Assembly: GCA_007134025.1 (NCBI GenBank)
Contig: SLLR01000022.1
Coordinates: forward strand, 1-44,854
Reading direction: 5' to 3'
Source of the DNA: Desulfuromonadaceae bacterium
GTDB lineage: Bacteria; Desulfobacterota; Desulfuromonadia; Desulfuromonadales; Syntrophotaleaceae
Length of the DNA: 44,854 nucleotides
Made by a program: the position numbers and the translations under genes. Shown here piece after piece: positions 3,496 through 34,148 of this stretch. Below the pieces are notes generated by a model that saw only the letters and a list, made by a program, of their open reading frames with translations, made no database searches and was not told the origin of the DNA. Every line of letters begins with the position of its first letter. Within the stretch, counting starts at the first letter, position 1.

Positions 3496-4835
3496 GGTGC
3501 CCTCCTGGCGACGTTTTTGAAGACCGGGTTGTGGAGCGCGTTGTTCAGATCCTCGGCCAGATTCAGCAGGCCCAGGTAGGCGCCGTAACTCTTTTTTTTC
3601 TCCTGATTAACGTCGACGAAGGCGATTCTCTTTTTAATCGCGGTAAACAGGCTGCGGCCTCCGGCCAGCAGCAGATCTGCACCGGTCTGATCAATGATGC
3701 GGGCCTGTTCCTGCCCCGGTTCGGTCATCAAAACCCCTTGTTCGCCCAGATACTGCCGCGCCTTGTACCGATCTTCCTCGGTGGCCTTTTTCACCGAAGT
3801 GGCCACCACTTCCAGACCGAGATCCTGCAGCGCCGAGGCGATGGACCAGGATTTATTGCCGCCGGTATTGAGCACCGCCTTTTTGCCCTGGAAAATTTTG
3901 CGATAGGGTTCCAGCTTTTGTTCGAGCAGGGTCTCCTCCCGGGCTATCAGGGCCCGAGCCCGTTGCACCAGCTCAGCGTCACCCAGGGCCTCGGCGATGG
4001 CCAGAATCGAGGCGCTGGTGTCCCGTTTGCCGTAAAAAGAAACGGAGATGAAGGGGATGCCGTAACGTTCCTGCATCTGGCGGGGCAGGGACACCAGGGA
4101 TTTGGCGCACACCAGCACATTGAGCCGGGCGCGGTGGGCGGTGCGGATGCTGGCGACACGGCCGTCGCCGCTGAGGGTGGAGAGCAGCCGAATCCCCAAT
4201 TCCTCAAGCAGGGGGGTGTATTGCCACATGTCGCCGGTGACGTTGTACTCGCCGATCAGATTGATGTCAAAAGGGGTTTGCTTCTCCGGTTCCCGGGTGC
4301 CGATGAGTTGGGAAAGGACCGCTTCTCCGGCCAGTCGGCTGCCGAGATTTTTGCTGCCGACAAAACCGGGTGCATGAACCGGCACCACGGGAAGGCCATG
4401 GGCCTCCGTCGCCTTTCGACAGACACTGTCTATATCGTCGCCGATCATGGCGGTGACGCAGGTGCTGTAGACAAAGACCGCCTCGGGGGCGTAGTGGTGG
4501 ACGATATGATCGATGGCCGAGCGCAGCTTTTCCTCGCCGCCAAACACCACGTCATTGGTACTGATGCCGGTGGTGAAACCCATTTGGGTCAGATCCCGTC
4601 CCGGCCAGCTGGTTCCGGTAAGGCGGGTTTCCCAGGAGGCGCCGAGGCAGGTGATGGGGCCGTGCACCAGATGGGCGGCGTCGGCAAAGGGAAAGAGAGT
4701 GATCTGGGCGCCTTCAAAGGCGCAGCCGCCGGTGGTGGCCCCCGGTTTCGGGGCGTTGCAGGCACCGCTTCGGGACTTGTTGTGAGAGCAGGCGCTCTCC
4801 TGAAGCAGTTCGCGAATCTTCGGTTTAGGTGCCAA
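3483..4835 (-). CDS. nifE: Nitrogenase Fe-Mo cofactor biosynthesis protein NifE
   Basis: NifE is the alpha-like subunit of the NifE2N2 scaffold. Recognisable blocks are ACSHNK near the N-terminus, PKPGATTGGCAFEGAQ, HLVHGPITCLGASWE and FVYSTCVTAMIGDDID, all characteristic of NifE. The open frame extends upstream to an ATG at 4991, but that extension resembles no NifE and would cover the sigma-54 promoter. A TTG at 4835-4833 preceded by AGGAG (complement of 4843-4847, 7-nt spacing) gives a 450-aa protein starting MAPKPKIRELLQE, as in known NifE, so I prefer it. It overlaps nifN by 13 nt. Confidence 0.92.
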   Translation of the reverse strand: MAPKPKIRELLQESACSHNKSRSGACNAPKPGATTGGCAFEGAQITLFPFADAAHLVHGPITCLGASWETRLTGTSWPGRDLTQMGFTTGISTNDVVFGGEEKLRSAIDHIVHHYAPEAVFVYSTCVTAMIGDDIDSVCRKATEAHGLPVVPVHAPGFVGSKNLGSRLAGEAVLSQLIGTREPEKQTPFDINLIGEYNVTGDMWQYTPLLEELGIRLLSTLSGDGRVASIRTAHRARLNVLVCAKSLVSLPRQMQERYGIPFISVSFYGKRDTSASILAIAEALGDAELVQRARALIAREETLLEQKLEPYRKIFQGKKAVLNTGGNKSWSIASALQDLGLEVVATSVKKATEEDRYKARQYLGEQGVLMTEPGQEQARIIDQTGADLLLAGGRSLFTAIKKRIAFVDVNQEKKKSYGAYLGLLNLAEDLNNALHNPVFKNVARRAPWEK

Positions 4836-14728: not shown

Positions 14729-15092
14729 TGGTCTGACGAGGCGATAAATTCTTCGCACCAATCCCCGATGGGATTCGACATACACACTGTACCCCTTTTA
14801 GCCGGCCTGATCGAACTGCTTCCCGTGAGGCGGATTGACCAGGCTTTTTGTTTTGGATCAGACGCCAGACTTCGGACGATCTCTTGATATGCATACGCCA
14901 CACATACGCCAAAAAGACTTTGCAGCAACAGGGCGATTTGCTAAGGTGAAAAATTGAGAACAGCTTAACTTTCAGCCATCCGAAAACTCCGAGTGAATAC
15001 AGCCGAGTTTTCGCGTTGAAAGCCAGTTCATTGATGGTGTCGCCCGGCTCGTGCCGCGCCTGCCTGCAATTTTTCCATCTGATGCCCGGGCA
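14729..15092. other. Intergenic region before the hybrid kinase
   Basis: This stretch has no supported gene. A weak terminator candidate follows the DtxR gene: GCCTG near 14804 pairs with CAGGC near 14840, then TTTTTGTTTT. A possible promoter is TTGCAG (about 14923), 16-nt spacer, TAAGGT (about 14945), followed by a long two-step hairpin at 14969-15022. Confidence 0.45.
14969..15022 (+). promoter_or_regulatory. Structured leader hairpin upstream of hybrid kinase
   Basis: CTTTCA (14969-14974) pairs with TGAAAG (15017-15022) around an internal loop, and CGAAAACTC (14981-14989) pairs perfectly with GAGTTTTCG (15005-15013) over a 15-nt loop. There is no T-run, so it is not a terminator. It does not fit the c-di-GMP-I riboswitch layout that I looked for. 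Confidence 0.4.
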
Positions 15093-32459: not shown

Positions 32460-33152
32460 ATGGAGCTATCCACTCTGGGTCTGACTTTGGCAGTGTCCGT
32501 TGTGTGCGGTCTTGATCGTACCGCTGCGGGGCAGTTTATGCTGTCTCGCCCGATTGTGGCCGCCCCCCTGACCGGATGGCTGCTGGGGAGTCCCGAAGCG
32601 GGACTCCAGATAGGTGCCATGCTTGAACTTTTGTGGCTTGGCCGACTTCCCGTAGGTGCTGCGATTCCGCCGGATGACAGTCAGGTAGCAGTGGGCTGCA
32701 CCCTGCTGGCGGTTGCCGCCCAGGCACGAACCGGGATGCCCCTTCAGGCCGTGGCGGTTGCCAGCCTCTTGCTTGGAATGCCCTTTGGAAAAGCAGGACA
32801 ATTCTTTGATCGCCAAGCTCGGATCCTCAACGGAAAGCTGCTGCATCGGGCCGAAAAGGCTTTGGAATGCGGTTGTGCGAAATCACTGGAGAGGTTGCAT
32901 CTGCTGGGGATGCTCCATTTTGCCCTGGCCTCTGCAGCCACCCTGGGCGTCGTCGTCAGCGGCGGCTGGTTGCTGCTGCCCCTGGCCTTAAAAACCCTGG
33001 AACAGCCTCTGACTGCGGTTTCGAACTGGCTTTGGCTGCTGTTTCCACTGACGGGAATCGCCTCGCTGCTCGGCGGACTGAAAGTTCCCCGGGGCTGGCA
33101 GATCTTCTGTGTTTCGTTTTTGCTGAGCTTGTTTGTATTGGTGCTTAGATAG
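32460..33152 (+). CDS. PTS mannose-family EIIC component
   Basis: The 230-aa integral membrane protein begins with the family hallmark GLDRTAAGQFMLSRP and GAMLELLWLGRLPVGAAIPP, and has about six hydrophobic segments. It is shorter than typical IIC (about 265 aa), mainly in the C-terminal half. With IID it forms the sugar channel. Immediately after its stop lies an inverted-repeat insertion that separates it from IID; the TAG stop itself overlaps the first base of the repeat. Confidence 0.87.
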   Translation: MELSTLGLTLAVSVVCGLDRTAAGQFMLSRPIVAAPLTGWLLGSPEAGLQIGAMLELLWLGRLPVGAAIPPDDSQVAVGCTLLAVAAQARTGMPLQAVAVASLLLGMPFGKAGQFFDRQARILNGKLLHRAEKALECGCAKSLERLHLLGMLHFALASAATLGVVVSGGWLLLPLALKTLEQPLTAVSNWLWLLFPLTGIASLLGGLKVPRGWQIFCVSFLLSLFVLVLR

Positions 33153-33384
33153 TTTTCATCCGCAAACGGCCCTTTTCCGCTGTAGCGGCGTCAATCTGCA
33201 GGTTTGCTTGTGCGGCGTACCGATGTACGCCTCCGCGCAATCCTTTGATTTCCTTGCCACAACGAAAAATTGCTCGTTTCCCCTATGAAAACTGCGCTGT
33301 GTCCATCCGGGTTTTCCGGATGGACACTAGATAGTGTCCGTCCGGAAAACCCGGATGAATACGGGGCCGTTTCCGGATGAAAAC
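33152..33384. repeat. Nested inverted-repeat insertion (MITE-like or IS scar)
   Basis: This 233-bp stretch has 21-bp terminal inverted repeats (33152-33172 and 33364-33384; both read GTTTTCATCCG from outside, with one mismatch over 21 bp). AGATA flanks it on the left (33147-33151) and one base off on the right (33386-33390), perhaps a target duplication. Inside are a TGCGG/CGTAC hairpin (33211-33235), a perfect 12-bp stem GTGTCCATCCGG (33299-33310) with CCGGATGGACAC (33316-33327), and a second inverted version at 33334-33356. ATGAAAAC at 33285-33292 mirrors the left end, suggesting two abutting units. There are no coding frames. Confidence 0.75.
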
Positions 33385-33404
33385 GAGATAAAAGGTGATT
33401 GGCG

Positions 33405-34148
33405 ATGAAGCTGCCCCGCCTTGTTCTGCTGCAGGTGTTTTTACGGTCCTTTCTGCTGCAGGCCAGCTGGAATTACGAACAGATGCAGAGCCTGGGTCTG
33501 CTGTACGCCGTGACCCCGGCCTTTCGTCGCTATTATACCGGGGCGGCTCTGCTGATGGCCTACCGACGTCATCTCGAGCATTTCAATACCCACCCCTACC
33601 TGGCGACGGCGGTGATTGGAGCCCTGCTCAGGCTTGAAGAACAGAAGCAGCAGGGGGCCGACCCGGGATTCGGCCTGTCCGAGTTCAAGGCGGCCATGGT
33701 GGCTCCTTGTGCGGCTATGGGCGACGCATTTTTCTGGGGAGCCCTGCGTCCACTTGTGGCGGTCGCGGCCCTTTTGCCGGCTTTTCAGGGTTTTTGGTGG
33801 GCTCCTCTCGGCTATCTGCTGCTGTACAATTTTCCTCATCTCGGCTTTCGAGCTCTGGGTCTGATCAGAGGCTACGGGGGTGGAGTGCGCGTTGTGTCGA
33901 GCCTGCAGCACTGGCGTCTTTCCGATTGGTCGGTTTATTGCAAGCAGCTACTGCTTTTGCTGCTCGGTGTCCTTGCCGCGCTGATCAGCATTGCGGCGAC
34001 GGCGGGTCTCGGCCTGAGCGGCGCCTGGGTCCTGTGCGCCGGTCCCTTGTTGTGGGCAGTCGCCATGCTGATGCGCCGGAAGATTTCGCCCCTGCTGGTA
34101 ATCTGGGTATTGTGCCTGTTATCGCTGAGTTGGTCTCAGCTGCGTTGA
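33405..34148 (+). CDS. PTS mannose-family EIID component
   Basis: The 247-aa membrane protein has the IID signature FLRSFLLQASWNYEQMQSLG near the N-terminus and helices in the C-terminal half. It is shorter than typical IID (about 280 aa). ATG 33405 follows AAGG at 9 nt. It is separated from IIC by the 233-bp repeat insertion, so its transcription depends on read-through or on a promoter within the repeat. HPr follows after 15 nt. Confidence 0.87.
   Translation: MKLPRLVLLQVFLRSFLLQASWNYEQMQSLGLLYAVTPAFRRYYTGAALLMAYRRHLEHFNTHPYLATAVIGALLRLEEQKQQGADPGFGLSEFKAAMVAPCAAMGDAFFWGALRPLVAVAALLPAFQGFWWAPLGYLLLYNFPHLGFRALGLIRGYGGGVRVVSSLQHWRLSDWSVYCKQLLLLLLGVLAALISIAATAGLGLSGAWVLCAGPLLWAVAMLMRRKISPLLVIWVLCLLSLSWSQLR

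Follow-up and report, generated by a model that had tools for sequence, protein, structure and literature searches.

The window, by which we mean the whole 44,854-nt stretch of DNA that was analysed, contains a PTS gene cluster in which IIC and IID are accompanied by IIA, IIB, HPr and EI (Table 1). Between IIC and IID lies a segment (33152–33384) that contains none of the listed open reading frames and is bounded by 21-bp inverted repeats with one mismatch (33152–33172 and 33364–33384). Within it, a 12-bp stem, GTGTCCATCCGG/CCGGATGGACAC, is located inside 33299–33327, and an inverted near-copy of this stem inside 33334–33384. The sequence-only reading had described these terminal repeats, the inner palindromes, the lack of coding sequence and an AGATA on either flank, all of which were recovered here, the AGATA as part of the longer 6-mers TAGATA and GAGATA. 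Folded as RNA, this strand of the segment reaches -121.8 kcal/mol (z = -10), and none of 200 shuffled sequences had an equally low energy; the structure of the segment far exceeds chance.

Table 1. Features of the IIC–IID junction in window coordinates.
Feature	Positions	Strand	Basis
PTS IIC gene (EII-Sor), stop TAG at 33150–33152	32460–33152	+	Pfam PF03609; G001 has ...CGATAA there
Left target copy, TAGATA	33146–33151	.	Sequence; 6-bp duplication rule
MITE copy E1, 176-bp form	33152–33327	+	Model R1, 200.8 bits, E 3.6e-44; same layout more than 20 times in G007
Hairpin A, covarying body of E1	33152–33292	+	Covariation across copies
Hairpin B, 29-nt palindromic right end of E1	33299–33327	+	Palindrome sequence; structure across copies
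Middle target copy, TAGATA, common to E1 and E2	33328–33333	.	Sequence; like layout between two G007 IS copies
MITE copy E2, 51 bp, two ends only	33334–33384	-	Model R1, 26.5 bits, E 1e-4; end-to-end reading
Right target copy, GAGATA, one mismatch	33385–33390	.	Sequence
PTS IID gene (EIID-AGA), ribosome-binding region AAAAGGTGATTGGCG intact	33405–34148	+	Pfam PF03613; same 5' flank in G001

In the sister genome G001 the site is empty: about 15 nt separate the IIC stop codon from the start of IID, and the flanks are as in the window. An insert at this junction was likewise absent from all other relatives in which the junction could be read. This comparison with close species, which the sequence-only reading had proposed, favours mobility, as the sequence is missing in every readable case. 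Three further sites occupied by related copies were also compared with G001, and two of these are empty there while one is occupied in both genomes. At the IIC gene, the stop codon has changed from TAA to TAG, with TA supplied by the target and G by the element (AGA TAA became AGA TA plus G), and the end of the IIC protein is the same as before the insertion. Because the first base of the element completes TAG and the ribosome-binding site of IID is untouched, the operon stays translatable. No intrinsic terminator (a GC-rich stem followed by a T run) was found in 33050–33450, and no sigma-70 promoter in the segment. We conjecture that the hairpin pair, if co-transcribed between IIC and IID, could alter mRNA processing or weaken the translational coupling of the two genes.

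Searching the same genome returned 49 matching pieces, several contigs stopping within the repeat, and a covariance model returned 26 matches, with about 25 copies or fragments lying beyond the window segment. The family is present in 27 of 40 relatives, as well as in named Desulfuromonadales metagenome assemblies and elsewhere in the phylum; G173 and G191, the latter of which we take to be Geobacter uraniireducens Rf4, contain copies with clean 6-bp duplications. Under the refuting condition set by the sequence-only reading, these many other locations, in the own genome and in relatives, also favour mobility. Members of the family have the properties of MITEs: they are 51–250 bp long, occur in multiple copies, contain neither an open reading frame nor a transposase gene, and are framed by inverted GTTTTCATCCGGAAAC/GTGTCCATCCGGAAAC ends and 6-bp target duplications.

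Among the copies read with their flanks, two main lengths stand out, one of about 176 bp and one of about 248 bp, the longer form having a 69-bp extra segment. The window element E1 has the 176-bp form, a layout found more than 20 times in the relative G007, so it does not represent a long copy that was damaged. In the long-form copies L011, L014 and L016, the 69-bp extra segment lies near the tip of hairpin A and is self-complementary (GGACCATCCCTGGCC...GGCTGTCC), so that an entire hairpin arm sets the long form apart from the short one. In the family consensus, the region that corresponds to 33278–33327 consists of TTCCCATATGAAAAC, 6 nt and the 29-nt end hairpin, and in most members resembles an element-target-element junction; the family may have started from an element that was already a nested pair.

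A partner for these elements was located by searching for DDE transposase families. The relative G007 has a 1683-bp IS whose ends and target match those of the MITE, in six copies that are 98.6–100% identical to one of them, and whose transposase belongs to the ISNCY family (NCBIfam NF033593, 483 bits against a cut-off of 325); in one of the six (L191), a TAG lies within the transposase gene. Similar IS, at 97% and 87% on the protein level, are found in G002 and G025, respectively, and in all three genomes the IS ends are GTGTC(C/T)ATCCGGAAA, with TAGCTA-like 6-bp duplications. In G001, the left end of such an IS and the start of its gene are present, cut off by the end of a contig. The own genome, a draft in 149 contigs, yielded no ISNCY transposase, and the first 172 loci no full-length IS with MITE ends. 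The full-length relative with a transposase that the sequence-only reading had told us to look for is nevertheless available in the IS of G007 and its counterparts in G002 and G025. This IS is like the MITE in its matching ends, its TAGCTA-like 6-bp duplications and its side-by-side insertion across one target, but unlike it in its length and in its transposase gene, the sequence in common amounting to about 20 bp per end and nothing more. On these sequence similarities, the MITE family is probably mobilised by an ISNCY-type transposase.

Three similar 6-mers, TAGATA, TAGATA and GAGATA from left to right, flank and separate E1 and E2. The third has one mismatch; the likeness of all three suggests that E1 and E2 arrived successively rather than as a ready-made pair. 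It had been suspected that two elements might have landed together; they do lie side by side, but their boundaries divide the segment into 176 bp and 51 bp, and not into 141 bp and a remainder. The 141-bp unit with its own ends (GTTTTCAT...ATGAAAAC) does exist, but as a hairpin shared by the whole family that made no separate insertion here. The alternative suggestion of a single IS that suffered a deletion gives way to the pair of MITEs with a third target copy (33328–33333) between them. The same arrangement is seen in G007, where two near-identical ISNCY copies (L183 and L185) adjoin across a single TAGCTA, as E1 and E2 do across TAGATA.

Given the short inverted ends, the duplicated 6-bp palindromic target, the many sites and the junction that is empty in relatives, we consider it very probable that two copies of one MITE family, likely mobilised by an ISNCY-type transposase, entered the stop codon of PTS IIC next to each other. 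An ISNCY transposase acting in trans would have inserted E1 into TAGATA and thereby duplicated the target; the regenerated target would then have taken a second insertion, in the opposite orientation, that gave rise to E2, which would have undergone an internal deletion before or after its insertion. As each insertion restores a preferred target at its edge, repeated insertion at one spot would be expected. Points against this account are the ISNCY transposase not found in the own draft genome, the short sequence common to MITE and IS, the mismatch in the third target copy and a loop that E1 and E2 alone share.

It is possible, though we think it rather doubtful, that only E1 transposed, and that E2 was formed at replication by palindrome-driven template switching, i.e., by an inverted duplication of an end combined with a deletion. 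The loop CCGGGTTTTCCGG is common to E1 and E2 and occurs in no other sequence compared, and E2 may accordingly be a product of E1 instead of an independent arrival; furthermore, the few matches to other 51-bp elements resemble end fragments, none being a convincing independent copy, and E2 appears to be unique. However, E2 has both the left and the right family end and is flanked by 6-bp target copies as an insertion would be, the two IS copies in G007 show the same arrangement, and the left end of E2 has the consensus CATCCGGAAAC where E1 has CATCCGCAAAC. Judged from these features, E2 may have come from E1 either by self-insertion and deletion or by template switching.

Insertion at a stop codon is not confined to the IIC gene. 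Across 100 copies, the target consensus is YTAGYTAR and the flanks agree over six positions; the 6-bp duplication is exact in 35 copies and has at most one mismatch in 60, while shuffled flank pairs gave 1.7 and 11.3, respectively. In 22 of 60 duplication-flanked MITE entries, a list that includes the window site twice, the target contains the stop codon of an open frame 100 codons or more in length. The corresponding values were 2.2% for random places and 10.7% for TANNTA sites, but the latter are mostly intragenic, so that the enrichment may reflect survival besides target choice. The excess of stop codons can thus result from target choice, from survival, or from both.

Comparison of 16 divergent copies indicates that the 141-nt hairpin A is maintained by compensatory changes. 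Double changes occur at 18 of the 53 pairs in the structure, and the number of double-change cells (51) compares with 11.9 in shuffled alignments, a control against which kinship among the copies can inflate the excess, and with 1–10 in slid controls, which argue against relatedness alone. Among single departures, G-U (14) is not in excess over A-C (22) when one fixed U-G pair is left out, and the double changes therefore do not establish selection at the RNA level; a constraint on a DNA hairpin, or the correction of quasi-palindromes, could possibly produce the paired changes as well. No Rfam family reached its gathering score in the window, and matches in the copies were weak.

The core of this hairpin also occurs on its own. 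In the class members G102, G137 and G064, many matches span only model positions 11–130 and lack TIRs; the stand-alone cores L233, L235, L236 and L244 have GRCGTAGCGCTGCTACGCC as their central palindrome. A model built from stand-alone cores (R2) detected matches at E <= 1e-6 in 72 of 117 genomes of the class, a count that covers both stand-alone cores and the TIR-framed form, and several of these genomes have at least 27 matches each. In three genomes, 20 of 24 stand-alone copies lie in sense orientation behind a long open frame and begin within 10 nt of its stop codon. Furthermore, three core copies occupy collinear positions in two species of one genus, while one copy from the same region is found in one species and is missing from the other. 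At this difference (L255, about 3800–4060, versus L270, 5430–5800), a core follows a stop codon in one species where the sequence between the genes of the other is different, and another palindrome, GGGGCACGGC...GCCGTGCCCC, lies next to it.

These observations allow for a reading in which the hairpin core has a function at 3' ends, as RNA or as a DNA hairpin, and was brought into the operon as a ready-made regulatory hairpin after ISNCY ends had enclosed it. The excess of double changes, the existence of cores without TIRs across the class, their position behind stop codons and their collinear retention between species all point in this direction. We nevertheless hold this reading to be tentative and on balance unlikely, as G-U does not exceed A-C among the single departures, quasi-palindrome correction of DNA could also yield paired changes, one copy varies in presence between two species, and promoter and terminator signals are absent at the window site. 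Less likely still, in our estimation, is the extended proposal that a functional core, linked to stop codons throughout the class, was made transposable by ISNCY ends and, by settling at stop codons and restoring them (TA plus G), would spread 3'-end hairpins among genes and operons, this PTS operon included. The view that the segment is immobile and serves the PTS operon as a conserved leader or as a regulatory element between genes would agree with its very stable fold but is refuted by the empty junction in relatives and by the many unrelated locations with target duplications, and we give it practically no credence.

MITEs within operons are already known. Chunjie, a MITE of 178–235 bp in Geobacter uraniireducens, lies within an operon, the structure of which, according to the title cited, is not disturbed (PMC10969869, citing Chen 2008); as outlined there, it is the closest parallel to E1 and E2, being a MITE within an operon in a bacterium related to ours. 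In G191, the pho operon is duplicated and one copy has an insert of about 233 bp, which fits the published description of Chunjie; this insert (L304) has the ends CAGCGTTGTCCGGTTTGGTTT and no significant match to our family, and the two are therefore not identified with each other. ERIC and Correia/NEMIS are intergenic MITEs of 100–200 bp with long hairpins, and their co-transcribed copies have reported effects on mRNA stability or are proposed RNase III substrates; compared by description, they differ from E1 and E2 in their hosts and in their 5'-TA-3' termini (PMC2229807). REP elements with RAYT are characterised by a Y1 transposase and by no target duplication; for the TIR form, as distinct from the stand-alone core, a target duplication of 6 bp and a partner of the DDE type were observed. 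In Geobacter metallireducens, 24 intergenic "predicted short RNA elements" were described in 2009 (PMC2700814, Fig. S1 legend). As presented in that legend, they resemble the stand-alone core in being intergenic and multicopy and, in the part of the sequence compared, in the central palindrome GRCGTAGCGCTGCTACGCC, and they differ from the MITE in being described without TIRs or a transposase.

In the literature searched, we found no published description of an ISNCY-linked MITE of the E1/E2 family, which is thus apparently undescribed. To judge from the copies compared, its new aspect would be a cargo that consists of a covarying hairpin linked to stop codons. The locus brings together, in a single complete case, a MITE, its likely transposase, a target rule and an unoccupied site in relatives, for bacteria whose intergenic repeats are for the most part catalogued as unexplained multicopy sequences. 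Through it, a short-RNA family proposed in Geobacter would be tied to mobile DNA, which makes the question of regulatory RNA or transposon debris directly testable, and siting at stop codons would represent one route by which mobile DNA enters compact operons without breaking them.

Two minor matches were noted. One, on the minus strand of L232 (185–289), is a sub-threshold match to the TPP riboswitch (36.9 bits, E 2e-4) that overlaps the start of a stand-alone core. The other is a weak R1 match elsewhere in the window (14972–15023, minus strand; 15.7 bits, E 0.029), which resembles a decayed intergenic mini-element of the E2 type.
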